Below are positions 6,201-47,178 of a stretch of 64,000 nucleotides of DNA, in pieces. Within the stretch, counting starts at the first letter, position 1; each line of letters begins with the position of its first letter. Where the stretch lies: positions 5,304,128 to 5,368,127 of the forward strand of contig OY811973.1 of the NCBI GenBank assembly GCA_963681505.1. Direction: 5' to 3'. This stretch comes from Eunapius fragilis. Its lineage: Eukaryota > Porifera > Demospongiae > Spongillida > Spongillidae. The notes beneath the pieces are model-generated. The model had not been told where the DNA came from. It saw only the letters and a program-made list of their open reading frames with translations, and did no database searches. The position numbers and the translations under genes are program-made.

Positions 6201-9200
6201 TTCTCTTTGGTAGAATCGATTTTGAGCTCTTGCATTTGCCTAGTGTCAGTGTTGTAATGTATTTTCAGTGATGAACAGGTAGGCACACCATGGTGGCAGA
6301 CAAGGGGTGACTTTCAAACTGCCCAACCTGCTGAAGAGAGTGGCGAAAGTGATGATAGTGATGGAGGAGGGGATGATGATGGGAGTGAAGATATTGAAGA
6401 TGATGACAAACCAACAGGTCTTACAGAGTGTTCACTGAGCTCATCTTGTGTTCCTCGTAGTGAAGGTACATGTATAGTTGGGTTTGTTTGGTGCACAGTA
6501 CATGGTATCAATTGTTTCATTTGTTGCAGTCCTCACTTTATTGGATAACAGATTTGAGAAAGTTAGTTATATAAATAATTCTGTATTCTGTATTCTGTAT
6601 TTGAGAACGTTAGTTATATTCTGTATTCAGCATTACCTACTGTATGTAAGTGTCATCATTTAAAGGTATGTCACAATTAAGGAATCTATGGGTCAACGCA
6701 CAATTTTTTATTGTAATTAAGGTGCAGCACATAAAGTTTCTCAAATTTCACAAATAGGAATAGGGCATGTGTCCTGAATTGAGTGTTTATACCCGCATCG
6801 ATTTGATCTTGCACTTTGAATTGGCCTAGATTCGATGATTCCCTTTGTGATTTAATCATCGGGGTAGTTTGTTGGATGTAACCCCACCCTTACACTCAAC
6901 TTGTGGTGGGGCAGGGTGAGAGAATTGTTGGTAAATTTACCATAGGGATTTGATGTACATGACCTGAGTAAGACCGTCCTCTCTGATAGTGGCTGTATGG
7001 CATGTGGGGGGGGGGGGGGGGGGGGGGGGGGGGAGAGGGGGGTAAATTGTCAGTCCGCAGTATTATCTTCTTTAATGATGATGATGTGTGGAGAAATACT
7101 AATTTCCACCTAATAGCTGACAATATACATGTACCGTAAACTACCTGTTAGAACCCCCCCCCCCCCCCCTCCGCCCTCAATGCGCGAGATTGAAAAAAAA
7201 GGGTACTTTTTAAAATCATCATAACTCAGTAACCATGTACGCTAGCTCTTACCTTTTTCAAACTTTTGTAGGACTACCATTCCTTTCCAGGAAGTTTGAA
7301 AAAGATAAGCCTAGCATAAATGGTTACTGAGTTACGCTGATTTTTAAAAAGTACCTTTTTTTTTCAATCTCGCACGTTGGGGGCGGAGGGGGGGTTCTAA
7401 TAGGTAGTGTACGGTAGTTATTTCTATCCGTAGGACCATTGTGTGCGTCTAATGGCATTCTTACAATTAAGGGATCTGACTGCTTCGAAATATTCTGTCA
7501 GAATTAAGTTATTGTGACATTCCATATGATGCTTCGGTATCTTTTCTGGTAATGGATTTTCCTTGCTATTATCCCTTTGCTGCCTCCCTTAATGCATTTT
7601 TGCTTATATTCTCATACTCTGACAGTTGGTAGAGGAGTATGATGATACAAACATTGGCAATTTGGTTGATGATGTTGACGATCCTGCATCTACTGATGGT
7701 GACCAATGGCTGATTGAATCTGCTGTGCAGGACTTTGAAAACAATTTTACTTTCAATGTGCAGAGGTAGATTTAATGATTTGATATACATGTATTCTCTG
7801 TGCTTTTTGTGTTTGCCATACAACATGCCATGTTGAATCATGGGAACTGTGTGGTGTACTGAGAACTGAGATATATATGGGACAGTGTCTAGCAAAATCA
7901 CCCTTCTGGCTAGTTTATCAAGTTTTCAAATTTATTGATTTTCCGTGAACTCCAAAAAGCTTCTATCAAATGACTGCATCCTAAATTGGACCTGTTCCAT
8001 ATATATATATATCAATCGCTCCTTTGTATTCATATACGCGTATGTAAATTAACTGTAAAACCCCTCCAAATCGAGTAAGTTAGTTATGTAATCATGATCC
8101 TAGTGTTGTCTAGCATGAATTGACTGTTTGCTGTTCATCGGTGAGTTTAAAAAATTGATAAGAAAATTTCTGTACCAGTTTTGTGTTTTCTCTTGTAACT
8201 TACTATCCGTACATTTAGTTATATCACTCATCATCAACAACTCTTGTGACAAACTATCATAGATACATGTATCTTTACACAGCAGTGATGCATTATCATA
8301 AACGTTCATCCGATTCCACACGAAGGCCTATATTATAAAAGTGAGGCTAAGGTACAAGTGTACAACCTTATAAGAGAACAAAAGAGCTTCGTGGGCTATT
8401 AGTTATAGGTCCTCGCACATACTCTATTGAATTAGAGCACACAAAAAGAAGATATGCATCTACAGTACCGGTCATAATAAAAGTCACGTTCTGTTTTAGT
8501 GCGACGATCGTAGCACTGTGCAGTCTTTTTAAAACACGAAGATAAAATGATGATCTTTCTGACGCACATGTACGTATTAACTAGTTCCGCGACGTGCATA
8601 ACTCCGTTTACACTGGTTTTATATTAACGCACGCGGCAACAAAACGATGACGCTGCGTAGATCACCCGCCAGGATTGAGCAAAGGAATTCTAACGTAGCG
8701 TATAAAACTGAACAAGCGCGTCCGTTAGGAAGAACCATTTTACTAAATACCTTTAAGTAATTCTGCCTCCGCCCCTACAGAAAAAATCGCTCGCTTCGAC
8801 CGCTACATGTACTTCTTCTATACAATGTACATTTCCTCTTTGAGTTCCCAAAATCCCCCCTCCCTTTGAAGGGATAAGTCGATGATGTCATATAATAGAT
8901 GAGTCCGCGTTTAATTTAGCCACGAACTGAGCGCTGTTGCGGAACGTCCATCCAAGCAATGCTCTACAACAAATCAAGCAATGTGAATGTTTTGTTCAAA
9001 AACGCGTCTAAACCACTGGCAATTAACAACTTTTGTGTGAAGAATAGCTACAATGCCAAAACAAAATGAAACAAGAAGCCATATCTTGGTGCCATGATCG
9101 TAGCACTAAAACGGAACGTGACTTTTATTATAACCGTTACTGTAAGTGCACCCTCACACCAAGGTTGTTTTTTAGGCTGTAATTTTGCTCGTCATGGAGT

Positions 9201-24200: not shown

Positions 24201-26799
24201 TGACTCATTGCATGATTTGTTAGCTCCATACTTCCGCGCTTCATGTTTCTTCCATTACCATCTACAAAGCAAAGATATCCATTTTGCTTATCTACACCAT
24301 AATTCCTGATCCCTTTCCCTTGGGTCTAATATTTAGTTCTCCATTGAGTCTTCTGGTCATCGTTCACTGTGTATATATATATATATATTCATCATGGAAT
24401 ATGACAATGTTCTTTTGGTGTTCATTATTAGTGAATGTTTGAATCCGGTGTGATTACCCCAGTCAGAAACAATCGATCTATTGTTTGCATCTACAATGAC
24501 TGCCCAGAACCCACTCCCTTCTGACCAAATGTATTACAGAACAGCCCCATTAAAGTTAGCTTTAGTATCTGGGCAGTTGATCCACTACAACATTTTGTCT
24601 TCCTGATGAAGATACTGAGGGATCTATTAAACCCAGATTTAGCTCTGCCTATAATAGTATCTTTCCTTTGGCCTGCTTGGTTGATCATAAGTGTTTCCCG
24701 CAGCATACCAAAAACAGGGTGCTCCGCCCTGTTTGAATACTCCAGAAAATGTAAATGTATAATTAATCTCCCGCTCGCATACTGTTAATAAATCAAATTG
24801 TGTGTGTGTTAACGACTCGCATGCCACTCGTGTGAGTACCACATGTATCGTAGAGTACATGTACTAAGCCCCTTCTGCCCTCACCAAAAAATGGCCCATG
24901 TTTGAAAGAGCGCATTGTCGTAATTTCGAGCGCTGCTGCATGCGCTGTTCTTCGAAATCTTGATAGAGCACCATTTCTTTCCAGAAATGTTGAAACAGGT
25001 ACGCACTAGCGTTAATGATCACGACGATACTCAGTATGCTCATTTAAATACAAGCCATTTTTTTTTGGTGGGGCAGAGGAGGCTTAGTATGTATATTCTT
25101 CTGTATACTTATGTTATCCTATAACAATTTATCGATCCACAGCGCGTAGTTAATTCGTGACATGTAGTAAGTACATGTATTCCATTTTTTGTTACAGGTA
25201 TGCCACAGGGACAATTAAATCATTTATCGCGTATCTCATTAATTATTCATGAGTGCCCTGTTTGAAAGCATTCTGCAGGAAACACTGAACATGTAGATGC
25301 TGTTATCAGCACTCCCAACATAGATGTCTCCATTGGGCGGTAACACATAATGGATCCATGCATTGCGCGGCATAATACATTGCACCTCTATATATCTTTA
25401 ATCAAAAACTATATTAGTTGCTGCTGGTGTACATACTGTTGCTGATTTAATTGCAACGCTACTGTAAAAATTACTTATAGGGGTTGGGGGGAGGGGGGGC
25501 TGGGTCCACGAGGTACTTAATGAAAATTTTCACCCTCACGAGGTACCTCATGAAAATTTCACCCTTTCTCTACCTTCAACCTGTTACGCACACACTACAG
25601 CTGAAACTGTTGTCAGTTCCATGTGATGTTTCAGTTATTCATGTTATGGGTGACGGGGCAAAAAGTCATTAAATAAAGGCAAATCTAAATATACAACCGC
25701 TCTAATATCCATTGTCAAACCGCTTGTCACCCGTTCTGAAACTTTGTCATCCATTCTGAAATGTCACCCATTCTGAAACTTTGTCATCCATTCTGAAAAT
25801 GTGTTACCCATTCTGAAACTTTGCCATCCATTCTGAAACATTGTCGCGCAAGCCGATACTTTGTCGTGCAGGCCGAAATCTTGTCGCACAAAAAGAAACA
25901 TTGTCGCATGCATCCTGAAACCTCTACACCATGTCTGGCCTTTCAAAACCATGTGTCGCCTTTCAAAACCATGTGTGGCCAACCAAAACCATGTGTGATT
26001 TTTTGGCATGGATTTCACACCATATCCTACTGCAGATTACCATAGCTATCTTACTGTAGATTACCATAGCTATCCTACTGTAGATTACCATAGCTATCCT
26101 ACTGTAGTTTACCATAGCTATCTTACTGTAGATTATCATAGCTCAGGTTACCAACCTAAGTACCTCTAAATGGAGAAACATACACAGGTTATATTAAAGA
26201 AATTTTGAACACACTTGTGTGCTTATGTGGTTTTGGAATAACTTTATTTAGATGCATGTACAGTTTGAAGAACACAGATATCAGGTGTTATAGAATATGC
26301 ATGTTTATTTTGCATTCTGTTATAACTAGTTCTTTTTGAAAATGATGTATTTGATTCACCTACTAAAATGGTTGCATTGGTGTTTTACAAATTGAGCATT
26401 GTATAGATCCAGACTCTGAAGCTCTCTTTTGATTAAGGATTTTGTTGTCTTCATTGTATACTCACATTAATTTGGCTACTTTTTCAAAAAGTGTTCGGTT
26501 AATTGTAAAGAGTAGCAGGGCCATTAATAAAATGTTACATAAACTGGTACTTATATTTCTGTTCAGTTATTACTCACCGACCTAAGGAAGAGAGCAAAGA
26601 AGAAAAGAAGGCAAGGAAGAAGATGATCAAAGAGGACAGAAGGGTATGTCACCACCTGCAAATTGTTTTTATATTTATTCGACAACATCTGTAGGGAAAG
26701 AGAGCACAGAAAAAGGCTACTAAAGTTGCCTTCAAGACAGAAGAGTTGAGGATGGAGAAAGTGATAGCTACTCGGATGAATACAAAACCAGTTGTCTGA
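224..26799 (+). CDS. LTV1: LTV1 ribosome biogenesis factor (11 exons, 5' partial)
   Basis: Exons: 224-391, 2791-2866, 5412-5512, 5576-5622, 6269-6465, 6530-6561, 7626-7765, 9451-9582, 12986-13131, 26567-26643, 26695-26799 (TGA 26797-26799). All junctions are GT-AG, phases agree throughout, and the 1221 nt give 406 residues plus stop. Family hallmarks occur in order: GILFDDDYDYLQHL (exon 1), LDWDPDIVDAL and LEDDFIL (exon 3), an Asp/Glu-rich tract (exon 5), LTLLDNRFEK (exon 6), VEEYDDTNIGNL (exon 7), EWDCESIL joined to STYSNLYNHP across exons 8-9, and a basic Lys/Arg-rich C-terminus (exons 10-11). Known for the family: LTV1 is a non-ribosomal factor in late 40S head maturation, released after CK1 phosphorylation. 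Human LTV1 is about 475 residues, so only the N-terminal part is missing, left of the window. No AATAAA is evident just after the stop. No disabling change is seen, so I infer a working gene. Confidence 0.95.
392..2790 (+). other. LTV1: LTV1 intron 1
   Basis: This intron of about 2.4 kb joins two phase-0 exons (donor GTAAGC, acceptor TCTGTAG). It contains the TIR element at 993-1406. The rest is AT-rich, with scattered ATACATGTA palindromes and no convincing coding sequence on either strand. Confidence 0.85.
993..1406. mobile_element. Short TIR DNA element with 5-bp TSD
   Basis: The ends are inverted: CAGGGATCGAAATA on the left, and on the right the complement of CAGGGTTCGAAATA. The direct repeat CCTTG flanks the element (988-992 and 1407-1411). 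The interior is rich in ACCTGCAC/GTGCAGGT inverted motifs. There is no ORF, so this is a non-autonomous element of about 414 bp. The CAGGG terminus resembles hAT-type ends, but the 5-bp TSD is shorter than the usual 8 bp, so the superfamily is open. Confidence 0.7.
2867..5411 (+). other. LTV1: LTV1 intron 2
   Basis: This intron interrupts a Gly codon (G|GC). It holds the foldback element at about 3187-3846 and a 20-C homopolymer at 5295-5314. Remaining sequence is AT-rich with no recognisable gene. Confidence 0.85.
3187..3846. mobile_element. Foldback element of about 650 bp
   Basis: The two halves are near-complementary along almost their full length. A left arm starting at the G-tract (3196-3215), with GCAAAGAAATCTGTATGGA and CAATACTGTAGAGCTTGAAG, is mirrored by the right arm ending in a C-tract near 3827-3835. 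The arms meet near 3510-3520 around TTAACCC / GGGTTAA. There is no ORF, and I see no clear TSD. It could be a MITE or an old inverted duplication. Confidence 0.75.
5513..5575 (+). other. LTV1: LTV1 63-bp stop-free intron
   Basis: The intron between LEDDFILL and ANEGQ is 63 nt, a multiple of three, with no in-frame stop. The donor is GTAATT and the acceptor TGTACAG. Retention would therefore insert 21 mostly hydrophobic residues without a frameshift. Alignment to the family pattern (EDDFIL followed by xANx) supports removal. Confidence 0.75.
5623..6268 (+). other. LTV1: LTV1 intron 4
   Basis: The donor is GTAAGTAC and the acceptor ATTTTCAG, splitting an Asp codon (GA|T). It contains only AT-rich unique-looking sequence and no other feature. 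Confidence 0.8.
6562..7625 (+). other. LTV1: LTV1 intron 6
   Basis: A phase-0 intron of about 1.06 kb. It carries a 28-G homopolymer (7006-7033) and the foldback MITE at 7132-7416. The ATTCTGTATTCTGTAT repeats near 6580-6630 are a short local duplication. Confidence 0.8.
7132..7416. mobile_element. Foldback MITE of about 285 bp
   Basis: The ends are TACCGTAAACTACCTGTTAGAA plus a C-tract (left) and G-tract plus TTCTAATAGGTAGTGTACGGTA (right). The arms continue inward through GAGATTGAAAAAAAAGGGTAC and its complement to a centre near 7270-7290. No coding capacity. The C/G homopolymers sit at matching positions in both arms, so they belong to the element. Confidence 0.8.
7766..9450 (+). other. 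LTV1: LTV1 intron 7
   Basis: A phase-2 intron of about 1.7 kb, mostly filled by the Tc1/mariner-type element at 8463-9142. No other gene-like sequence. Confidence 0.8.
8463..9142. mobile_element. Tc1/mariner-type non-autonomous TIR element
   Basis: The left terminus reads CAGTACCGGTCATAATAAAA and the right is its inverted partner CAGTAACGGTTATAATAAAA. The similarity extends about 50 bp through GTCACGTT(C/T)(C/T)GTTTTAGTGC. A TA dinucleotide flanks each end (8461-8462, 9143-9144), the Tc1/mariner target. At 680 bp with no transposase ORF it is a deletion derivative. It is related to the element at 10052-10756. Confidence 0.8.
10052..10756. mobile_element. Second Tc1/mariner-type non-autonomous element
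   Basis: The inverted termini share GTCAGATTAAAAGTCACGTT and its diverged partner, both continuing into TTTCGTTTTAG. TA flanks both ends (10050-10051, 10757-10758). The terminal core matches the element at 8463-9142, so they are one family. Length about 705 bp, no transposase ORF. Confidence 0.7.
11424..12175. repeat. Dispersed repeat, copy 1
   Basis: About 750 bp recur at 18549-19300 in the same orientation with moderate divergence. Shared blocks include CCATCCACTTGCTTAAAACTT, GTAGGCGGGGATGTTGCGATAC and GACAG/AATATGTTAACATGATTTTT. No coding frame is conserved between copies. The family is unknown. Confidence 0.75.
13185..14511. mobile_element. 1.3 kb TIR element carrying a 33-bp minisatellite
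   Basis: The termini GGGTCATTCCACTATGAC and its inverse (ending GGAATGACCC) are part of TIRs of about 104 bp that include TTTGTTTGTCTTTGGGTGAA. AGTA flanks both sides (13181-13184, 14512-14515), a plausible 4-bp TSD. Inside are 33-bp tandem repeats (about 13954-14105) encoding SVTDGEPLPIT-like units in an open frame of 174 codons (13806-14330), and a C-tract (14336-14355). No transposase is recognised. Confidence 0.7.
13954..14105 (+). repeat. 33-bp tandem repeat
   Basis: About five degenerate 33-bp units with core ATCTGTGACTGATGGCGAAC. The period is a multiple of three and stop-free, so it reads as an 11-residue repeat within an ORF, but nothing shows that it is translated. Confidence 0.75.
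14523..15330. mobile_element. TIR element of about 0.8 kb
   Basis: The ends are CATTCTCTATACGAGAAGGTT and its exact inverse at 15310-15330. An inner inverted pair (GGTCAGAATAAAGGTCT near 14600, AGACCTTTTTTCTGACC near 15280) resembles the Tc1/mariner-type family at 8.5 and 10.1 kb, so this may be a nested or composite insertion. No coding content. Confidence 0.6.
16457..16726. mobile_element. Foldback MITE of about 270 bp
   Basis: Arms of about 115 bp are inverted copies sharing AACAAGGGTCTGTAATGGTAA and TAAAAAGCAA, with end segments AAAGTTGGTGA. The GCTTTTTACACCACCAT block also occurs inside the left end of the 14523-15330 element, so the two are related. Confidence 0.75.
17838..18402 (+). 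pseudogene. RLE-type non-LTR retrotransposon fragment (endonuclease region)
   Basis: This is a 5'-truncated piece of the C-terminal part of a retrotransposon polyprotein. Visible in order: ARLLSVSAPHASSWLSVL, KWWLGMDTSQ, LDPLGHHATTCKHGGD, VVRHNTLRD, then after a frameshift near 18190-18230 HPADLLLTNW and GKTAAFDISV. The H-C cluster, RHN motif and PADxx-D arrangement match the restriction-like endonuclease of the R2/R4/CRE-type non-LTR group. The zinc cluster is damaged (C-A-L-Y where the copy at 64 kb has C-S-F-C) and the frame is broken. Nonfunctional relic within an LTV1 intron. Confidence 0.8.
18549..19300. repeat. Dispersed repeat, copy 2
   Basis: Direct-orientation partner of 11424-12175. 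The sequence just downstream (19425-19550, with CAAGCTAGTACACCA and TAAGTAAGCTA) also resembles 35850-35955, suggesting a further low-similarity family member there. Confidence 0.7.
19915..20545 (-). pseudogene. BEL/Pao retrotransposon relic (integrase end)
   Basis: Read on the - strand, 20541 to 20094 gives LVRNLNRFSARREFSRKYVA, then NGSPYWRRRPGGDNYTRLIQ and SMKKCLRKAIGKTRVPN, which match the end of the BEL/Pao integrase (the usual PWWGGFWERLVxSVKRCLRK block). About 20080 to 19950 gives VGEVVLIHDPVQPRALWKIG KVE, the typical domain that follows integrase. Frames shift between blocks, and no LTRs or RT were found, so it is a dead fragment. Changes at PWWGGF suggest old decay. Confidence 0.75.
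20633..20765. repeat. Inverted repeat pair, left arm
   Basis: The segment containing CAACAGTTTCAGCTGT, GAAGGTAGAAAAAGGGTGAA and repeated AAGTACCTCG recurs inverted at about 25505-25650. The two arms lie about 4.9 kb apart inside LTV1 intron 9 and could be ends of one decayed DNA transposon or two solo insertions. Confidence 0.65.
21120..21262. mobile_element. Short MITE with GGGGCC ends
   Basis: The ends GGGGCCATCCATAA and TTTAAAAACGGCCCC are inverted. The interior has two C-tracts and TCACGC/GCGTGAC inverted motifs. TGTCACGC-type ends also occur near 28080 and 35500, suggesting other degenerate relatives. Confidence 0.55.
22607..23285. mobile_element. TIR element of about 0.68 kb
   Basis: The left end CTCAGGGCAGTTAAGGCCTGGGTA is inverted at the right end (TACCCATGCCTTAACTCCCCTGAG). 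A CTCAGGGTAGTTAAGGC match near 11354 may be a solo end. No convincing ORF inside and no clear TSD. Confidence 0.6.
25505..25650. repeat. Inverted repeat pair, right arm
   Basis: Inverted partner of 20633-20765, with CGAGGTACTTAATGAAAATTT and CTACCTTCAACCTGTTACGC. A short internal duplication (CGAGGTAC...ATGAAAATTT occurs twice) is present in both arms. Confidence 0.65.
25710..26150. repeat. Three adjacent minisatellites
   Basis: About 25725-25915 repeats CCATTCTGAAACTTTGTC units of 18-22 bp. About 25930-26000 repeats CAAAACCATGTGTGGCC. About 26025-26145 has five near-perfect 26-bp units of the CTACTGTAGATTACCATAGCTA type. No reading frame is meaningful. Confidence 0.85.
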
Positions 26800-28409
26800 C
26801 CATTGAGAGAATTTGGAATAGTAATCAGATGACTCATTCAGAAACAGCACCATCTTTTTTTGAAATGTGTACAACATGCAGTACATTCACTTCATCCATC
26901 AATCAAGGAGGGGACAGAGATGGGAAGGAGGTGGACAAGTGATGAGAATGGGGACAGTGATAGCGAGAAGGGGACAGTAGATATGGGATAGAGGGGACAG
27001 TGATGAGGAGGGGACAGTGATAGGGAGGAAACAGTAGAAATGGGACTGATGAGAAGGGAAGAGTGATGGGAAGGAGGGGACAGTGATGGCTTCTCTGCAC
27101 TCATGGTTACCCATCCTCCTTCCCTTTCAATGGGTGTGTCAACGAGGCATGTATGCATGGGAAACTCATTCGGTTTGTTGAGGGGTCATACCTCAACACT
27201 TCAGTGTCCCAGAAATTGTACCAACACATCAGTAGTGTTCCACACACATTAGTGTCCCCCTTCCCTTTCGATAGTTGTGTCAACAGGGCTTACATGCGAC
27301 ACTCATTTGGATGCTTTATTGCTATGATCGGGTAGATAGATGTATGCATATGCACAGCGACATAGCCAACAGGATTCACAAAGCCTGTTGCCTGCATATT
27401 GGGTCCACTGACTGTAATTGCGTAAGTGTAATTGGTATGTGATTGACATTGATCAAATTCTTTATGCAGTGTTATCTTTATCGCAGGGTGTGACAGCCAT
27501 GTGCAGTCCTAGCTCAAGGGGGAGGGACAATGACCATGAATGAAGCATGGTCAGAAATGCGAGCCGCACTGTAGATGCTGTTGTGATAGCTGGCAAGCTA
27601 AGCACTGGGAAAACTTAGTTGTGCAATCTTTAACCACATGGTTTGCCTTCTTATTTACAAGAGAAATGCAGAATTAAATTTTGACCGATGATCCACGATG
27701 TGTAATATCCAGTTGCATCCATTATGTGGCATATGCCTCATATCAATCAGAGCGATCTACAGATATTTTTTACGTCTTAGTAAGCATGAATAGTCATTAA
27801 ATCTACCTGCGGATACTAGAAATAGCCCATCAGCTATGATTGGCCTTACAGGGGCTTTAGCTTTAGTGTGCTGTGGTTTCCTGTCGTGTTCTCAGGGAGA
27901 CAGAATTTCAACGAATATAATTTCAGGAATAGGTATGGCAAATCAGGCTAATCACGTATCTACACACTAACAGAGCCAAAAATGCACCACCTAGGAGAGC
28001 AATAACTAGAATACACACGTGTTATCATGTGCGCATGCAGGGTAGAATAGTCATTGATGAAGTTTAAGGGAGCATCCATAAATGATGTCACGCTTTTTTG
28101 ATGAATATTGGACCATGCATACATATGTTGTCCACATTTGTCACAAATGTAAGAACTATACCCCCATACCCCACCTTTAAATGATGTCACATATCATTAC
28201 ACCATACCCCCCCTTACCCACCACGCACAAATATGAAGATTCTTTATTCCCATTTCCACAGCAGGCTGATTTCTATCAATCAACATATACTGATGCACTA
28301 GTATAGTGTTTTTGTATTTATTGAAGTAATTATTTTGGCTTTGTTCACACATGCAAGCAGAGTTTTTTAATCACATTAAATGACAATTGGCACAGTTGTT
28401 TAATTCAAG
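26800..28409. other. Intergenic region downstream of LTV1
   Basis: Contains a purine-rich minisatellite (about 26886-27090, GGGGACAGTGATG-type units of roughly 18-24 bp), then AT-rich unique sequence. Near 28073-28190 two ATGATGTCAC motifs resemble the ends of TGTCACGC MITEs. No gene recognised. Confidence 0.6.
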
Positions 28410-31400
28410 CTACAGTGTATCTTCTTCCCATGGTTCTTGGAAGTGTTCAATCAAGGAAATTACTGGGAGTTGATCATCTATATATGGGAACCACTTTGAA
28501 CACTATCAGGTGGAATGATTTTGTGTTGCTCATATAGCAATGTCTGTAGCGTGCCAGAGTGGCTCTCGTGCTGGAATGGCCTAATGAGGCGCGCCTCTGA
28601 AGTTATTGTAACCGCGGCTTATTAATTGTATTCACGCATTTATATGAATTGTATTAACGTACAAGGTGTGCCCGCCTACGATACAGATTCCGCATACCTT
28701 TATCTCCACGATTCCTATACGCCTGGAAAAAAAAGATGAATCCAAAAATTGAGATATCAACAACTGTCCATTCCCGAATGGCTCGAGCCACTCTGGCACT
28801 CAAATCATGCATCCGGCGTGCCAGAATGGCTCGGGCCATTCTGGCACTCAAGTTATGCAACTGGCCGTGTCAGAATGGCTTGAGCCATTCTGGCACTCAA
28901 GTTCGGCCACGCATTACTGCGTGCAAGAATGGCTCGAGCCAATCTGGCACTGCGAACCATATTTGAGTGCCATAATGGCTCGAGCCATTCTGGCACTGCC
29001 AACCATATTTGAGTCCAAAATGGCTCAAGCCGTTCTTGCACGCAAGTAATTCCAGCCGTGCTAGAATGGCTCGAGCCATTCTGGCACTCAAATATTTTTG
29101 GCAGTGCCAGAATGGCTTGAGCCATTCTTGCACACAAGTAACGCCACTGGCCGAACTTGAGTGCAGAATGGCTCGAGCCATTCTGGCACAGCCATGCAGA
29201 TTACATGACTTGAGTGCCAGAATGGTTCGAGCCATTCTGACACGGCCAGATGCATAACTTGAGTGCCAGAATGGCCCGAGCCATTCTGGCACGGCAGGAT
29301 GCATCATTTGAGTGCCAGAATGGCTCGAGCCATTCCGGCACTCAAATCATGCATATATAAGGCCGTGCCAGAATGGCTCAAGACATTATGGCACTCAAAT
29401 ATGGTTGGTAGTGCCAGAATGGCTGGAGCCATTCTTGCACGAAAGTAATGCCACTGGCCGAACTTGAGTGCCAGAATGGCTCGAGCCATTCTGACACGGC
29501 CAGTTGCATGACTTGAGTGTAAGAATGGTTCGAGCCATTCTGGCACGGCCACTTGCATAACTTGAGTGCCAGAATGGACCGAGCCATTCTGGCACGGCCG
29601 GATGCATGATTTGAGTGCCCGAATGGCTCGAGCCATTCTGGCACTCAAAAATTGCATATATTAGATGGCCGGTCCAGAATGGCTCAATCCATTACAGCAC
29701 TCAAATATGGTTGGTTGGCAGTGTCAGAATGGCTCGAGCCATTCCTGCATGCAAGTAATGCCACTGGCCGAATTTGAGTGCCAGAATGGATCGAGCCATT
29801 CTGGCACAGCCATGCGGCAGACTACATGACTTGAGTGCCAGAATGGCTCAAGCCATTCTGACACGGCCAGTTGCATGACTTTAGTGTAAGAATGGTTCGA
29901 GCCATTCTGGCACGGCCAGTGCATAACTTGAGTGCCAGAATGGCTCAAGCCATTATGGCTCTCAAATATTGTTGGCAGTGCCAGAATGGCTCGAGCCATT
30001 TTTGCACGCAAGTAATGCTACTGGCCGAACTTGAGTGCCAGAATGGCTCGAGCCAATCTGGCACAGCCATGCAGATTACATGACTTGAGTGCCAGAATAG
30101 TTCGAGCCATTCTGGCACGGCCAGTTGCATCACTTGAGTGCCAGAATCGCTCGAGCCATTCTGACACGGCAATTTGCATGACTTGAGTGTAAGAATAGTT
30201 CGAGCCATTTGGCAAGGCCAGTTGCATAACTTGAGTGCCAGAGTGGCCCGAGCCATTCTGGCGCGGCCGGATGCATGATTTGGGTGCCAGAATGGCTCAA
30301 GCCATTATGGCACTTAAATATGGTTGGCAGTGCCAGAATGGCTCAAGCCATTCTTGCACGCAAGTAATGCCACTAGCCGAACTTGTGTGCCAGAATGGCT
30401 CGAGCCATTCTGGCACAGCCATGCAGACTACATGACTTGAGTGCCAGGATGGCTCGAGCCATTCTGACACGGCCAGTTGCATAACTTGATAAGTGTAAGA
30501 ATGGTTAGAGCCATTCTGGCACGGCCAGTTTCATAACTTGAGTGCCAGAATGGCCCGAGCCATTCTGGCACGGCTGGATGCATGATTTGAGTACCTGAAT
30601 GGCTCGAGCCATTCTGGCACTCAAATATGGTTGGCAGTGCCAGAATGGCTCGAGCCATTCTTGCACGCAAGTAATGCCACTGGCCGAACTTGAGTGCCAG
30701 AATGGCTCGAGCCTTTCTGGCACAGCCATGCAGATTACATGACTTGAGTGCCAGAATAGTTAGAGACATTCTGGCACGGCCAGTTGCATAACTTGAGTGC
30801 CAGAATGGCTCGAGCCATTCTAGCACTCAAATATTGCATATATGGCCGTGCCAAAATGGCTCAAGCCATTATGGCACTTAAATATGGTTGGCAGTGCCAG
30901 AATGGTTCGAGCCATTCTTGCACGCAAGTAATGCCACTGGCCGAACTTGTGTGCCAGAATGGCTCGAGCCATTCTGGCATAGCCATGCAGATTACATGAC
31001 TTGAGTGCCAGAATGGCTCGAGCCATTCTGACACGGCAATTTGCATGACTTGAGTGTAAGAATAGTTCGAGCCATTTGGCAAGGCCAGTTGCATAACTTG
31101 AGTGCCAGAGTGGCCCGAGCCATTCTGGCGCGGCCGGATGCATGATTTGAGTGCCAGAATGGCTCAAGCCATTATGGCACTTAAATATGGTTGGCAGTGC
31201 CAGAATGGCTCGAGCCATTCTTGCACGCAAGTAATGCCACTAGCCGAACTTGTGTGCCAGAATGGCTCGAGCCATTCTGGCACAGCCATGCAGACTACAT
31301 GACTTGAGTGCCAGGATGGCTCGAGCCATTCTGACACGGCCAGTTGCATAACTTGATAAGTGTAAGAATGGTTAGAGCCATTCTGGCACGGCCAGTTGCA

Positions 31401-34400
31401 TAACTTGAGTGCCAGAATGGCCCGAGCCATTCTGGCACAGCCATGCAGATTACATGACTTGAGTGCCAGAATAGTTAGAGACATTCTGGCACAGCCAGTT
31501 GCATAACTTGAGTGCCAGAATGGCTCGAGCCATTCTAGCACTCAAATATTGCATATATGGCCGTGCCAAAATGGCTCAAGCCATTATGGCACTTAAATAT
31601 GGTTGGCAGTGCCAGAATGGTTCGAGCCATTCTTGCACGCAAGTAATACCACTGGCCGAACTTGTGTGCCAGAATGGCTCGAGCCATTCTGGCATAGCCA
31701 TGCAGATTACATGACTTGAGTGCCAGAATGGCTCGAGCCATTCTGACACGGCCAGTTGCATGACTTGATGAGTGTAAGAATGGTTCGAGCCATTCTGGCA
31801 CGGCCAGTTGCATAACTTGAGTGCCAGAGTGGCCCGAGCCATTCTGGCACGGCAGGATGCATGATTTGAGTGCCTGAATGGCTCGAGCCATTCTGGCACT
31901 CAAATATGGTTGGCAGTGCTATGCAGAATGGCTCGAGCCATTCTTGCACGCAAGTAATGCCACTGGCCGAACTTGAGTGCCTTAATGGCTCGAGCCATTC
32001 TGGCACAGCCATGCAGATTACATGACTTGAGTGCCAGAATAGTTAGAGACATTCTGGCACGGCCAGTTGCATAACTTGAGTGCCAGAATGGCTCGAGCCA
32101 TTCTGGCACTCAAATATGGCCGTGCCAAAATGGCTCAAGCCATTATGGCACTTAAATATGGTTGGCAGTGCCAGAATGGTTCGAGCCATTCTTGCACGCA
32201 AGTAATGCCACTGGCCGAACTTGTGTGCCAGAATGGCCCGAGCCATTCTGGCACAGCCATGCAGACTACATGACTTGAGTGCCAGAATGGCCCGAGCCAT
32301 TCTGGCACGGCCAGTTGAATAACTTGAGTGCCAGAATGGCTCAAGCCATTATGTATTATTGGCAGTGCCAGAATGGCTCGAGCCATTCTTGCACGCAAGT
32401 AATGCCACTGGCCGAACTTGAGTGCCAGAATGGCCCGAGCCATTCTGGCACAGCCAGTTTCATAACTTGAGTGCCTAAATGGCTCAAGCTATGATGGCAC
32501 TCAAATATTGTTGGCAGTGCCAGAATGGTTCGAGCCACTCTTGCACGCAAGTAATCCCACTAGCCGAACGTGAGGCCAGAATGGCTCGAGCCATTATGGC
32601 ACAGCCATGCAGATTACATGACTTGAGTGCCAGAATGGCTCGAGCCATTCCGACACGCGGCCATGCAGTTGCATGACTTGAGTGTAAGAATGGTTCGAGC
32701 CATTCTGGCACGGCCAATTGCATAACTTGAGTGCCAGAATGGCTCAAGCCATTATGTATTATTGGCAGTGCCAGAATGGCTCGAGCCATTCTTGCACGCA
32801 AGTAATGCCACTGGCCGAACTTGAGTGCCATAATGGCTCGAGCCATTCTGACACGGCCAGTTGCATGACTTGAGTGTAAGAATGGTTCGAGCCATTCTGG
32901 CACGGCCAGTTGCATAACTTGAGTGCCAGAATGGCCCGAGCCATTCTGGCACGGCCGGATGCATGATTTGAGTGCCTGAATGGCTCGAGCCATTCTGGCA
33001 CTCAAATATTGCATATATGGCCGTGCCAGAATGGCTCAAGCCATTATGGCACTCAAATATGGTTGGCAGTGCCAGAATGGCTCGAGCCATTCTTGCACGC
33101 AAGTAATGCCACTGGCCGAACTTGTGTGCCAGAATGGTTCGAGCCTTTCTGGCACAGCCATGCAGATTACATGACTTGAGTGCCAGAATAGTTCGAGCCA
33201 TTCTGACACGGCCAGTTGCATGACTTGGGTGTAAGAATGGTTCGAGCCATTCTGGCACGGCCACTTGCATAACTTGAGTGCCAGAATGGCTCGAGCCATT
33301 CTGGCACGGCCGGATGCATGATTTGAGTGCCAGAATGGCTCGAGCCATTCTGGCACGGCCACTTGCATAACTTGAGTGCCAGAATGGCTCGAGCCATTCT
33401 GGCACGGCCGGATGCATGATTTGAGTGCCAGAATGGTTCGAGCCATTCTGGCACGGCCACTTGCATAACTTGAGTGCCAGAATGGCTCGAGCCATTCTGG
33501 CACGGCCGGATGCATGATTTGAGTGCCAGAATGGCTCGAGCCATTCTGGCACGGCCTGTTGCATAACTTGTGTGCCAGAATGACCCGAACCATTCCGGCA
33601 CGGCCGGATGCATGATTTGAGTGCCAGAATGGCTCGAGCCATTCTGGCACTCAAATATTGCATATATGGCCGTGCCAGAATGGCCCAAGCCGTTATGGCA
33701 CTCAAATATGGTTGGCAGTGCCAGAATGGCTCTAGCCATTCTTGCACGCAAGTAATGCTACTGGCCGAACTTGAGTGCCAGTTACTATATTATAGTGCCA
33801 AAATGGCTCAAGCCATTCTTGCACGAAGTAATCCTGCCGTGCTAGAATCGCTCGAGCCATTTTGGCACTCAAGAAATGCAACTGGCCATGCCAGAATGGC
33901 TCAAGCCATTATCGCACTCAAAAGTCATTACAAGCCATTATCGTACTCAAAAGTAGTAACTGGCAGCTGTGCGACCAGAATGGCTCTAGCCGTTCTTGCC
34001 ACACGTAATCAGAATGGCTCAAGCCATTATGGCACTTAAATATTGTTTACGTACCTGGAAGTGCTCGAACCATTCTGGCACTTAATTATAGTAACTGGCA
34101 GTGCCAGAATGGCTCGAGCCATTCTGGCACTTAAGTATATGTGGTAACTCAAATATAGTAACTGCATAGCCTTGCCAGAATGACTTGGCACGTACATTAT
34201 ATGGCACTCAAAAATAGTAACTGGCCGTGCCAGAGTGGCTCGAGCTATTCTAAAACTCAAATAATGCAACTGGTTTCCCAGAATGGCTCGAGCCATTCAG
34301 ACAGTCAAGTATGAAAAGTTAAACTGTCCGTGTCATAATGGCTCGTGCAAAAATATTCATAGTTAGTTTATCCCTCATGCAGGGTACAAAATTCATGATT

Positions 34401-35024
34401 TATGAATTAAATTATCCGTACGGCTTACTAGAGGCGCGCCTCATTAGGCCATTCCAGCACGAGAGCCACTCTGGCACGGTACAAATGTCTACCCAATCTG
34501 CTGCTTCTCCGTCAGGGCGGTCACAAGTTATTACTAACACTTCATTTCCCAATCTTATTACAGTACGATGAGGAACTACAAGTTGGTCAATTGATTGGGG
34601 CTCCTGTAGTGTCACTTTTATTCTTCCTATGTATTTGTCTGTGCTGCTGAAGCATATCTTTTTTCTTGCAAAATACAGGCCAAGTCCGACCTTGTAAATC
34701 ATCCTGAATTGATGGCAGTAAAGGTCATTTGGTAAATCCGTCTGCTGTAGAGATCAATCCCAATTGAGCCTAGCCTTGGCATTGAGTAATGTTTTCCTCT
34801 GCCGGCTTATAAGGTAGACTACTCCAAAACCCTAAAAGCTGTCCTTTCTTATTAAGGGACACCACTGCTTGCACCTCCTCAAACTTCTTTACGGCATCGG
34901 ACAAATTGTCAGCCTTTTTCATGTCATTCCAGATAATTTTCACGGTTTGTTTGATCTTTTTGATGTGTGTGTGCCTTCTAGTAGGCTTCACGCACACGGA
35001 AGTACAATTCTCTCTTGTTGCCAA
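28410..35024 (-). CDS. Unrecognised gene, last exons, interrupted by a giant intronic element
   Basis: On the - strand an exon at 34703-34493 (70 full codons, acceptor CAATTCAG, donor GTAGAC) ends at DGEAADW and joins in phase to an exon at 28502-28410 (30 codons then TAG; acceptor CCTGATAG), starting CSKWFPYIDDQLPVISLIEH. The first includes YIGRIKVTLQEPQSIDQLVV and VLVITCDRPDGEAAD. An upstream open segment (35024-34770) reads KKADNLSDAVKKFEEVQAVV and is probably part of an earlier exon, but its splice site is unclear. The 5.99 kb intron is almost entirely the TIR palindrome-array element. I do not recognise the family. Coding status is inferred from open, non-repetitive, phase-matched exons ending in a stop. 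Confidence 0.5.
28549..34478. mobile_element. 5.9 kb TIR element filled with palindromic satellite
   Basis: The 48-bp sequence at 28551-28598 (begins GTGCCAGAGTGGCTCTCGTG, ends GCGCGCCTCT) is perfectly inverted at 34430-34477, and the next base outward pairs too. GTA lies next to each end (28546-28548, 34479-34481), a possible 3-bp target duplication. Between them are about 180 bp of unique sequence on the left (28599-28780), then the satellite to about 34320. No transposase or other protein is encoded. The TIR start resembles the satellite half-unit (GTGCCAGA(A/G)TGGCTC), implying the array grew from terminal or subterminal motifs. Probably a non-autonomous DNA transposon of unknown superfamily. 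Confidence 0.75.
28780..34320. repeat. Palindromic satellite array, about 49-bp period
   Basis: The unit is a perfect 30-bp palindrome (half-site GTGCCAGAATGGCTC followed by its complement, centre CTCGAG) plus a spacer of mostly 16-27 bp. Spacers fall into a few recurring types: GGCCGGATGCATGATTTGA, GGCCAGTTGCATAACTTGA, AGCCATGCAGATTACATGACT and AAATATGGTTGGCA, among others. Many centres carry substitutions (GGCCCGAGCC, GGTTCGAGCC). There are on the order of 100 units. A higher-order repeat of 867 bp is visible (30181 and 31048 start the same block), so amplification involved multi-unit blocks. Long ORFs on both strands here follow from stop-poor repetition. Confidence 0.95.
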
Positions 35025-38427: not shown

Positions 38428-38452
38428 TAGACTCACGAACGAACTATAGAAT

Positions 38453-39016
38453 ATGGCTACGGAGCCCAACCTCGATAGTGTGTTCAAGCGAATCATAATG
38501 GAAACGATGCACGAAAAGGCAGTACTCGCGGCCGAAATACCAAGAGAAGAGGTATTAAACGTCAAAGATTTGGAAGCCATACGCCGCAGTCTAAGGTATT
38601 ATCGTACAAAAGGCTTCGCTAGTTTCTATTGTTTATGCCGTCGCAAGTGGGGGTCTGCCCACGCTTGGTGCATCCTGGATCTACGGAGACAGAAGGTCGC
38701 CTACAAGTATGGGCAAATGTGTCAGAAGTGCGAGAAAGAGGCGAAGCCAATCTTCGACAAAGAGAGCATTAAGCGTATGGCACAATACGCCGTGGACAGC
38801 TACTTGATCAAAACTCGCAGACTGCGGAGACCCCCGCAGCGCGATGATGATGACGGCAGGATTAAGGGTAACGAAGATGAACAGCCACACGACGAAAAGC
38901 GGTGCAGTGTGTGCCTCGTGAGTGGGGGTAGCTGTTGGAAGAAGAAGGATATACCTCATGCCACTGTGAATCATGACGAGGAGGAAATTCCTGAATTTTC
39001 CCGTTTGCATTTGTAA
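38453..39016 (+). CDS. ZAR1/RTP-like 3CxxC zinc-finger protein (single exon)
   Basis: An intact 187-residue ORF. Residues 53-120 match the 3CxxC zinc-finger domain of ZAR1 and receptor-transporting proteins: FASFYCLCRRKW (54-66), GSAHAWC (67-73, compare ESAYVWC in ZAR1), YGQMCQKCEKEAKP (86-99). A further CSVC plus Cys161 (151-161) fits the last ZAR1 cysteine group. The first pair is C60-x-C62 rather than C-x-x-C. An acidic stretch (131-145) separates the halves. Known for the family: ZAR1 proteins bind maternal mRNA 3'UTRs in oocytes, while RTPs act in receptor trafficking; which applies here is unknown. The stop overlaps a poly(A) signal. Being intronless beside multi-exon genes, it may be a retrocopy or a natural single-exon gene. 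Confidence 0.8.
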   Translation: MATEPNLDSVFKRIIMETMHEKAVLAAEIPREEVLNVKDLEAIRRSLRYYRTKGFASFYCLCRRKWGSAHAWCILDLRRQKVAYKYGQMCQKCEKEAKPIFDKESIKRMAQYAVDSYLIKTRRLRRPPQRDDDDGRIKGNEDEQPHDEKRCSVCLVSGGSCWKKKDIPHATVNHDEEEIPEFSRLHL

Positions 39017-44335: not shown

Positions 44336-44812
44336 CTATGGTAGAACAATAAGGTGTACAGCTTCAATTGCATCTTCCAGTTGCAGTTCTCCATCTGCCC
44401 TTTGTCCCCCATCTGCAATATCTGTTTCTTGCGGCACGTCCACAGCCATATCTTCTTCAGACTCAATAAACTTCAAATTGGTCCCAGCTGGTAACTGATC
44501 CACCGTGCTATGTGTCACTTTGGCTGAACCCTGGGGGGGGGGGGGGGGGGGGGGGGGGGAAACCTCTTGAGAACTAGAAGTTACAGGTACTCGAACACCT
44601 GGTGGACAGGGCTTAAGGCGATTGAAATGCACTACTAACCGCTTTCTTTTATTTGGTCTTGTATCCTGGATCCTATACACAGCTGTTGACAGTTTCTTAA
44701 TGATCCTATATGGCCCAGACCATGGGCAATGCAGTTTCCGCCCTCTGCTTTTATTAATTGCAGGGTTATGCAACCAGACTAGATCCCCAACATTAATTTC
44801 CTCTCCATGCAC
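44336..44812 (-). pseudogene. Gypsy integrase C-terminal module and tail
   Basis: Open frame with INVGDLVWLHNPAINKSRGR, CPWSGPYRIIKKL and KRLVVHFNRLKPCPPG, the GPY/F-type module that follows gypsy integrase. A poly-Pro run comes from a 27-bp G/C homopolymer (44533-44559) and is probably a late expansion. The tail is acidic and ends shortly before the purine tract and LTR. Confidence 0.85.
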
Positions 44813-44816
44813 TCTC

Positions 44817-45775
44817 CTATCGTACTGCTCTTTTTTGCCTGTCTAATTTTGTGTCCATGTGCTCTCTCACCCTAGAATAAGCCTCTTCTAGAGTGCTCTT
44901 AATACGTCTTACATGTTCGGGGTACGCCACTTCCTCTGTAGGCGTTGAACCATAGACCAGATCCAGTGGTATTTTTGCTTGCCGCCCGAACATCATGAAG
45001 AATGGGGAAAACCCTGTAGATGGATGGACAGATGTATTATAGGCCATACACACTGCCCGCAGATGTTTATCCCAGTCCCCTGGATGTTCTTCCACGGTTG
45101 CCGCTAGCATCCCAATTAGTGTACGGTTAAACCGTTCCACCAGTCCGTCAGATTGTGGGTGGTATGGTGCGGTGCGTGTTTGTTGATGTGGAGCAGCTTG
45201 AAAATCTCCATCATGATGTTTGCCTCAAATTGTCGGTCTTGATCAGAGTGCAAACGTTCCGGTACAGAGAAACGGTAGATAAACTCCTCCACCACCAATA
45301 GTTGTGGCCTCTTGGTTGGGTATGGCAAATGCTTCAACCCATCGGGTGAAATAGTCGCACGCACACCACCATGATATAAATGTTTCCACTTTGCACTGGT
45401 GGAAAAGGACCCACAATATCGACTGCAATGGCCTGCAATTATAATGGATATCCCGTTCGAACACTCTGCAACGGTGCCGGCGCTCCTGACATGGGTTTTT
45501 TTCTGACTGCACAGTATGGACAATTTCTACACCACAGCTTCACAGCGTCTACATGACCCGGCCAATAAAAGCACTCCTGCACTTGACTTAAGGCAAGATG
45601 CCCCCCCCCCCCCCCCCCCCCCCCCTCCTTTATTATGCAGGCTATCTAGAACCTCTTCTCTACTCACCTCTGGTAAGATAACTTGGAATTTCATATGTCC
45701 ATTTGCATCTTCATGCTGTCTGTACAATACTCCATCTTTCAACGTCAGCTGATCCCACTGCTCAATCAACTGCAA
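44817..45775 (-). pseudogene. Gypsy integrase (frameshifted)
   Basis: From 45775 down: a spacer with LKDGVLYRQHEDANGHMKFQ, the zinc-binding region with LWCRNCPYC interrupted by a 25-bp C-tract (45601-45625), the catalytic core VVCDYFTRWVEAFAIPNQEA and ERLHSDQDRQFEA, then MERFNRTLIGMLAATVEEHP and TGFSPFFMMFGRQAKIPLDL. At least three frame changes separate these blocks. The homopolymer lies where the second His of the HHCC finger should be. Confidence 0.85.
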
Positions 45776-47178
45776 AAGTTCTCGAGAGCCACCCTGGCCC
45801 GCGTAGTTTCTGGTCCGGGTTTCGAACCATCCTGCATAGCCTGGTACACTGGGCCAATACTCTTGTCCTGGAGCTGAAGCTGTTGTATGGATTTTTCGGA
45901 CACCACCAGGCCTAAGAGAGTGTTAACGTTAACATCTTGTTCAGGTAGAAGTCTGGAACGCGAAAGGGCATCAGCATTCCCATGATTCCGCCCACTCCGA
46001 TGGACCATTTCAATATCAAATTCCTGCAACTTTTCTAACCATCTTGCAATTTGCCCCTCCGGCTTCTTGAAGGTGTACAGCCATTGCAATGAGCTGTGGT
46101 CTGTCCTGAGGATAAAGTGCCTTCCGAGTAGGTAAGATCTAAAGTGCTTAATAAATGTTACCACAGCCAACAGCTCTTTTCTCGTTACACTGTACTTCGG
46201 TTCCGCCTTGTTAAGGACTCTGCTTGCATAGACTATAACTCTTTCCTCTCCATCAATATCCACCTGAGACAGCACAGCACCAATTCCGGACTCGCTTGCG
46301 TCTGTATCAAGGACAAAGACAGCTTTAAAGTCAGGAAAAAAAGCGAGGATAGGAGCCGATGTTAGTCGTAATTTCAATATTGCATATGCCTCTGAGCACT
46401 CCTGTGTCCACTTGAATTCGCGGCCCCTCTCCATCAATCGGAATAGAGGTTGTGCCAAGCTAGCAAAATCTTTCACATACCTCCTATAATATCCAGCCAG
46501 TCCTAGGAACTTTTGAAGCTCTTGCACTGTGGTGGGGGTTAACCACTTGTTCACAGCCTCAATCTTTGCTGGATCCGTAGCGATGCCTTCCCGAGTTATC
46601 TTATGCCCTAGGTAAAGAACTTCTTTGCGGCGAAGAAAGCACTTAGATGGTTTCACCTCCAGCCCCGCCCTCCTCAACTTCTCAAGTACTATAGCCCCAA
46701 GTTGTCTACGTGCTGCTGAAAGGTTTTGCCCATTATGACAATGTCGTCTATATATACTAGACAACTACTCCATTTCACACCTGCTAGTACTAGTACCATA
46801 TCCATTAACCTCTGAAATGTTGCAGGTGCATTGCACAAACCGAAGGGATTTACCTTAAATTCCATCCCGTGTTGAAAACGCTGTCTTCGGTCTGTCCTCC
46901 TCTTTTACTTCCACTTGCCAATAGCCAGTCAGCAGATGTAGTGTGGAAAACCAACGTGATCCCCCAAGGGCTTCTAATGTTTCGTCAATCCGAGGAAGAG
47001 GATAGGCATCTTTGCGTGTCACAAAATTGAGCTTCCGATAATCGACACAAAAACGGTATGTGCCATCCTTCTTCTGGGCCAGAACCACTGGTGATGCCCA
47101 CGGACTGTTTGATGGTTGAATAACTTCTCTTGCTAACATTTCTTTAACCAACTTGTGAGCATGCTCCTGTCTCGCCAA
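45766..47178 (-). pseudogene. Gypsy reverse transcriptase and RNase H
   Basis: RT fingers and palm: WASPVVLAQKKDGTYRFCVD, DAYPLPRIDETLEALGGSRW. The first catalytic Asp is replaced (FSTLHLLTGYWQ where the family has FSTLDL). A frameshift near 46855 precedes the intact YIDD box (about 46743-46754). From 46700 an unbroken frame gives KPSKCFLRRKEVLYLGHKIT, then RNase H with VLDTDASESGIGAVLSQVD, ILRTDHSSLQWL and GRNHGNADALSR. The RNase H part is intact, but the RT would be catalytically dead even without frameshifts. Confidence 0.9.

Follow-up and report, generated by a model that had tools for sequence, protein, structure and literature searches.

Ginger1 transposons encode a Gypsy/retroviral-type integrase, have TGTNR ends and carry a C-terminal OTU or Ulp1 cysteine protease, and Ginger target-site duplications (TSDs) are 4 bp long and specific for CCGG or CCGT in Ginger1 and 5 bp long in TDD, as stated in the portion of the Ginger description on which we draw (PMC2836005). 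Neither tandem repeats nor palindromes are mentioned in that paper. For IS3EU and GingerRoot, the excerpted account gives a 6-bp TSD, TA..TA ends in IS3EU, occasional TG..CA ends in GingerRoot and a group reported without the HHCC motif (PMC10045372). In Galileo, the THAP domain bound three sites, and three sites are present per Galileo-G end, according to the excerpt of that study used here (PMC3688188). Here we describe a 5939-bp element of the sponge Eunapius fragilis (assembly GCA_963681505.1), located in a 64,000-nt stretch of contig OY811973.1 (positions 5,304,128 to 5,368,127; hereafter the window), whose body is filled by an array of palindromes built from the motif of its own terminal inverted repeat (TIR). 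We put the probability that it is a non-autonomous cut-and-paste transposon with the array as a transposase-docking platform at roughly 70%. Judging from its sequence, it would be a variant of the integrase-type DNA transposons, with Ginger-like ends and domain plan and an IS3EU/GingerRoot-like TSD, set apart from Ginger1 and IS3EU as those groups are described.

Results

The element spans window positions 28545 to 34483 (plus strand) and begins with TGTA and ends with TACA, its two ends reading TGTAGCGTGCC and GGCACGGTACA. Its TIR is 54 bp long (left copy 28545–28598, plus strand; right copy 34430–34483, minus strand), and the right end is identical to the reverse complement of the left end at 53 of 54 positions. 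An exact 6-bp TSD, AATGTC, lies on both flanks (28539–28544 and 34484–34489). A first-pass annotation of the window had set the boundaries at 28549 and 34478, with a perfect 48-bp TIR; the inverted repeat holds, and its extent is corrected by ends that lie 4–5 bp further out. TGTA precedes and TACA follows the 48-bp repeat in all nine two-ended copies found in the genome.

As an empty-site query, we used 235 bases consisting of the joined flanks of the window element with one AATGTC. The query matched 24 places in the genome, of which 20 continue through the junction without the element, at 84–91% identity in 16 cases and 74–80% in 4; the other four matches are the window's own flanks (2) and partial matches (2). 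The 20 uninterrupted places are paralogous empty sites, and the window copy is inserted within another repeat: the sequence around it (flanks 28420–28544 and 34490–34599) belongs to a dispersed repeat that is present in at least 20 further copies. TSD and empty sites together show that the element moved as a unit. TIR-bounded dispersed copies, TSDs and empty sites are what defines a TIR (class II) DNA transposon, and that the element is such a transposon is close to certain.

Between the ends lies the array (28770–34304), which comprises 102 units within 6 mismatches of the 30-bp consensus GTGCCAGAATGGCTCGAGCCATTCTGGCAC; the 58,061 bp of the window outside the element contain no such unit, and neither does the right subterminal segment of the element (34305–34429, plus strand). 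The palindromic array reported by the first-pass annotation is real (84 matches in the window at ≤3 mismatches, compared to 0 in any of 100 shuffles), as is the modal spacing of 49 bp, while its description of every unit as centered on a perfect palindrome does not hold, only 10 of the 102 being perfect. Relaxing the limit to ≤8 mismatches gives 106 units, of which 10 are again perfect; the 105 spacings between them measure exactly 49 bp in 35 cases, the next most frequent being 46, 57 and 54 bp.

Each unit is an inverted pair of the half-site GTGCCAGAATGGCT, and the TIR contains this motif twice, in direct orientation and at a distance of 17 bp. The first copy, GTGCCAGAGTGGCT, occupies bp 7–20 of the TIR (28551–28564, plus strand) and matches the half-site at 13 of 14 bases, confirming a resemblance that the first-pass annotation had noted; the second, GTGCTGGAATGGCC, occupies bp 24–37 (28568–28581, plus strand) and matches at 11 of 14. 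The corresponding copies in the right TIR are at 34464–34477 and 34447–34460 (minus strand). Shuffled TIRs reached the observed score of the first copy in 1 of 20,000 cases and the sum of both in none of 20,000, and the two copies agree with each other at 10 of 15 bases at a lag of 17. The interior of the element contains 93 forward and 98 reverse matches to the TIR motif at ≤3 mismatches (shuffle mean 1.29, largest 5), compared to 3 matches in the rest of the window.

A genome-wide scan with the tip of this TIR (family 1; ≤3 mismatches) returned 34 places and none in a backwards-read control, so the TIR is not confined to the window. Eighteen of these tips form the nine two-ended copies, and 16 are single. 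With the 24 contigs of the 219-Mb genome labeled C1–C24 (the window being C3:5304128–5368127), the pairs besides the window element are C1:4095261–4105692, C1:5815974–5819489, C1:20490450–20493219, C3:2710017–2728645, C3:4464925–4470109, C4:3526595–3530517, C17:3460482–3469714 and C19:2575278–2578012. Left and right TIRs are identical at 51–54 of 54 positions across the copies. The TSD is exact in 7 of the 9: 6 bp long in five (the window, C1:4.10M, C1:5.82M, C4 and C19; AATGTC in the window and CCCTCT, CACAAC, AACACC and TGCGCA among the others) and 5 bp in two (C1:20.49M and C17). The remaining two have imperfect TSDs of ~7 bp (ATCAACC/ATCGACC at C3:4.46M and TAGGCTA/TAGGCCT at C3:2.71M).

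None of the nine copies lacks an array; they hold 102, 69, 55, 39, 63, 87, 58, 56 and 36 units, for a total of 565, of which 290 are distinct. Across these 565 units, the five least mutated positions form the core AATGG, a pattern that resembles a protein site. Exact palindromes were counted at 63 genome sites. Of the 50 that were listed, 48 are enclosed by a pair of tips or have an unpaired tip no more than ~1.2 kb away, which speaks against free satellite DNA and agrees with the view of palindromes confined to a TIR-bounded setting, two listed sites excepted.

A full-length relative with a transposase, which the first-pass annotation had proposed to seek, is present at C1:4095257–4105696. 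This 10,440-bp parent copy runs in the opposite direction and has the same left 218 bp, followed by a gene, an array of ~4 kb and the right end. Comparison with the parent shows the window element to be a deletion derivative of an integrase–Josephin transposon: its left subterminal segment (28599–28760, plus strand) is shared with the parent and is directly followed by the deletion junction. The junction is identical in the seven non-autonomous two-ended copies that have this left end, at 7 sites, and falls directly after ATATCAA, which reads TTATCAA in a single copy. Left ends of the seven derivatives and the parent are 94–98% identical (28 pairs), and right ends of all nine two-ended copies are 96–99% identical (36 pairs). 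Because seven copies at different sites share one junction and have near-identical ends, a single deletion derivative was multiplied, presumably by transposase acting in trans. In the C17 copy (L055:397–9637, equal to C17:3460478–3469718), both ends are of the right type and the TSD is 5 bp long, a foldback-like arrangement; judging from this copy, the left segment looks dispensable, while the TIRs and array are kept.

Two insertions were seen within family-1 copies. In the C3:2.71M copy, one unit of the array is interrupted by a CACTG..CAGTG element (L045:2662 to L046:1978, C3:2712161–2721477), which we take to be CACTA/EnSpm-like; it contains a frame with C2H2 zinc fingers and disrupted exons resembling those of a transposase, and AG on both sides restores the unit. 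We considered this 18.6-kb copy (L045 and L046) as an autonomous parent and rejected it, its minus-strand coding exons (within L045:3391–7021) belonging to the nested insert. L046:1–2360 is directly repeated at ~5877–8473. On C5, an insertion of ~1 kb (L049:655–1682) lies within the left end of a family-1 copy, for which no right tip was found in the 5.6 kb read.

The parent gene has an uninterrupted reading frame of 1045 codons, in which codon 2 is the first ATG and after which a TAA follows. Its product matches the Pfam integrase core rve (E 5.8e-13) and, below threshold, Josephin (E 1.1e-4; 22.5 bits compared to a cut-off of 26), and the only other match at E up to 1 is a stray DUF3630 (E 0.27). 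Seven relatives in European Nucleotide Archive (ENA) records (P0002–P0008) cover 61–92% of the 1045-aa protein at 34–42% identity. Josephin appears in the precomputed domains of five of them, and P0003 and P0005 score above the cut-off (32.6 and 38.5 bits). A scan of viral contigs with alignment A1 found no relatives.

Residues D199, D265 and E301 are invariant in all 8 aligned proteins and have DD35E spacing. Of the aligned rows that extend into the Josephin domain, most show the Q..C, H and D positions typical of it, and we take their catalytic roles to be those known from ataxin-3. Upstream of the catalytic core, an H-C-C-C pattern is conserved by eye in the 7 rows that reach it. The best match among solved structures is the foamy-virus integrase (E 1.6e-14 with the single sequence and 3.4e-17 with a profile), and residues 19–142 of a relative's predicted model align with the N-terminal part of that integrase at a modest Z score.

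A second family has the same plan. Its gene (C2:13726213–13729575) is intact, with 1121 codons from stop to stop, and the protein is 32% identical to the family-1 protein over residues 51–693, matching rve and, above the cut-off, Josephin (29 compared to 26 bits). Irregular repeats extend for ~2 kb upstream of the gene, and more start downstream. The family-2 tip occurs at 36 places, including 5 pairs, every one of which encloses array matches (C3:9095928–9102283, C7:8251278–8257453, C7:8555224–8559754, C12:263272–269022 and C12:892659–898679), and the listed family-2 array matches are spread over 13 of the 24 contigs. The copy at C7:8251278–8257453, for which both ends were read, begins with TGAATAGTTTAGTTTAAGGCAGCGTTTAAGTTAAGGCA and ends with TGTATAGTTTAGGTTAGGGCAGCGTTTAAGTTAAGGCA, with GCTTG on both sides.

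As in family 1, the family-2 tip has TGTA and two direct motif copies starting at bp 7 and bp 24, which agree at 13 of 15 bases at a lag of 17. The array again carries the TIR motif on both strands over kilobases, largely as inverted pairs, which here are imperfect and have a center of roughly 15–25 bp between the halves. There are 23 + 22 motif matches in the array of locus L051 and 11 + 9 in that of L061 (shuffle means 0.44 and 0.22) and none in the 6-kb gene part. Scores between the TIR of one family and the half-site of the other are no better than those of shuffles; by this comparison, the motifs of the two families are unrelated.

Three further family-2 gene loci (C2:12942042–12945375, C7:9068196–9071456 and C11:5107578–5108031) make four with C2:13726213, with pieces at 80–100% identity and at most ~4.2 kb from family-2 arrays, and a 74-codon gene fragment (C7:9063353) lies between array matches. 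Other integrase-like or integrase–Josephin-like lineages, with pieces 35–69% identical to the family-2 protein, were seen at C5:7187572, C11:7427399, C18:3699822, C7:4888864 and C21:1485534.

Elsewhere in the window, short minisatellites lie upstream of the element (25724–25845, 26023–26143 and 26906–27088). Pieces of a Gypsy-type LTR retrotransposon are found at 44339–46764 on the minus strand (Pfam RNase H and integrase C-terminal matches). An open frame at 38450–39013 encodes a 3CxxC zinc-ribbon domain (E 2.7e-11), and another at 62009–62923 has a weak reverse-transcriptase match below the cut-off (E 1.7e-4).

Discussion

The element resembles Ginger1 and Ginger2/TDD, within the scope of the description cited above, in the retroviral-type integrase of its family and a TIR of tens of base pairs or more, and Ginger1 also in a C-terminal protease of the ubiquitin/SUMO type. 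It differs from Ginger1 in that its TSDs are mostly 6 bp and show no CCGG or CCGT target, and in that the C-terminal domain is Josephin, with no OTU or Ulp1 among the Pfam matches listed. Of the Ginger1 TGTNR termini, family 1 (TGTAG) fits the pattern in full and family 2 (TGTAT) fits TGTN, but not the R. Ginger2/TDD is described with a TSD of 4–5 bp and a TDD-4-like transposase; the TSD mode here is 6 bp, with some of 5 bp. The 6-bp mode is a likeness to IS3EU/GingerRoot as excerpted; the TG..CA ends differ from the TA..TA of IS3EU, and the H-C-C-C pattern and foamy-virus-integrase-like N-terminal part differ from a group in which the HHCC motif is not reported. Polinton/Maverick elements, with their genes for a protein-primed DNA polymerase B and a capsid, are set apart by the 10.4-kb parent: outside its array, it has only two frames of at least 110 aa (1045 and 121 aa), and Pfam gives no PolB or capsid match for either.

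As to function, the nearest precedent for a transposon with additional internal docking sites is Galileo. In Galileo and Foldback elements of Drosophila (including Tetris, PMC4079207), transposase-binding sites are likewise repeated in long, internally repetitive ends, but these elements have a P-superfamily transposase and long direct-repeat TIRs, whereas here an integrase, a short TIR and ~100 inverted site pairs filling the body are found. Neither a P-type transposase nor a THAP domain is among the Pfam matches of the 1045-aa frame at E up to 1. Ends of repeated short units also occur in foldback elements such as the sea-urchin TU, which have an 8-bp TSD and another transposase.

We infer that the motif is the docking site of the element's own integrase-type transposase, which a gene-bearing copy would supply in trans, and that the array probably consists of amplified copies of this predicted binding site. 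This reading is favored because the array motif follows the TIR motif between lineages while the layout of the tip stays fixed. The same interpretation, offered by the first-pass annotation, is strongly though indirectly supported by the second family, which follows this plan in unrelated letters, binding itself being predicted. The alternative offered there, in which a captured array travels as one piece, loses weight because the gene-bearing relative of each family has the array too, and we rejected a captured foreign satellite for the same reason.

Retroviral integrases touch their DNA ends through N-terminal and C-terminal domains. In the mechanism we propose, the two TIR sites, set in a fixed register, would serve catalysis, while the array would act as a big internal docking platform, gathering transposase close to the ends and helping to pair them. 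The hundred or so pairs may add a loading platform, a synapsis aid or a sink. The array would lengthen and shorten through unequal exchange and would be retained because array-less copies would be mobilized poorly. Our guess for the Josephin domain is that it trims ubiquitin off the transposase or host repair factors.

The strongest competitor, though an unlikely one, is that the array is a passive minisatellite: an aborted transposition or a template switch would once have placed copies of tip pieces further inside, and unequal exchange would then have expanded them, palindromic repeats being unstable, as a functionless passenger. The longer periods of the array (98, 257, 303 and 355 bp) are typical of unequal exchange, the units are heavily decayed, and the copies go back to few ancestors. 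Yet such arrays arose in two lineages whose proteins are only 32% identical, each with its own TIR motif, and a passive repeat has no evident reason to follow the letters of the tip, which strengthens the binding-site reading; a passive array copied from the tip separately in each lineage is possible. The presence of an array in all nine two-ended copies also speaks against a dispensable passenger, as does the higher conservation of the palindrome than of the spacer in the 34 units of exactly 49 bp (pairwise identity 0.888 compared to 0.756), a comparison biased toward that outcome by the selection of units by palindrome match.

Less probable still is that the array serves as a repressor or sink that titrates transposase and limits damage, having been selected for low activity or by the host. 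This idea shares the binding premise of the docking platform and would suit the single intact gene per family among scored matches, beside many arrays. However, array-bearing non-autonomous copies outnumber gene-bearing ones and have ends only ~3–4% diverged, which better suits a mobilizable substrate. We consider it very improbable that the palindromes act as nucleic-acid hairpins (folded transcripts or single strands feeding small-RNA silencing, or cruciforms serving replication or recombination), an idea raised by the palindromic layout and by the effects on replication, cruciform formation and small RNAs that the first-pass annotation expected. The inverted pairs of family 2 are imperfect and interrupted by their center, and hairpins too have no evident reason to follow the tip. 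The half-sites change independently with no sign of preserved base pairing: the margins predict ~89 cells in which both pair partners are changed, and 46 were counted, of which 17 are compensated (565 units in 9 copies; the units are kin by descent, so this count is a description without a p-value).

Several observations weigh against the transposase-docking interpretation. We counted five family-1 gene loci (pieces mostly at ≥80% identity), and only one, C1:4095257–4105696, has tips and an array. The C14 locus (L059) has a tip and no half-site beyond it in 7.5 kb, the C2:350154 locus (L060) has no half-site in 8 kb, and the tip scan at ≤3 mismatches found no tip at the C1:8080008 and C9:6473164 loci. 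Two exact palindromes (C2:16135492 and C2:16135813) and an array match (C6:2160132) have no tip nearby, and the single tip at C7:8260781 lacks TACA. The nine two-ended copies share ancestry, and retention of the array may reflect inheritance and not need. For family 2, the gene-bearing locus is known without its right end, the 5-bp TSD (GCTTG) comes from one copy only, the half-sites were initially chosen by eye, and the summed two-site score of the TIR was reached by 200–237 of 20,000 shuffles, with the second site cut by the end of the compared stretch. The predicted protein structure is mostly of low confidence.

More tentatively, and at slightly less than even odds in our estimation, the two families may represent an undescribed lineage of DNA transposons in which a retroviral-type integrase is fused to a Josephin deubiquitinase and kilobase-long arrays of inverted copies of the element's own TIR binding motif form an obligatory platform in cis, with letters of array and TIR that change together with transposase specificity on a fixed layout (TGTA and sites at bp 7 and 24).

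It is common for non-autonomous DNA transposons to be reduced to short miniatures. Unlike these, the copies described here retain thousands of bases of one repeated motif, which points to a concrete path from a transposon to a satellite-like array, and Josephin would join the ubiquitin-type proteases carried by integrase-type transposons. If the motif is the docking site, each of the two families would be an independent natural experiment, the letters of the end motif having changed and those of dozens of copies inside the element having changed with them, and the pair would offer a rare view of how the DNA specificity of a transposase evolves.

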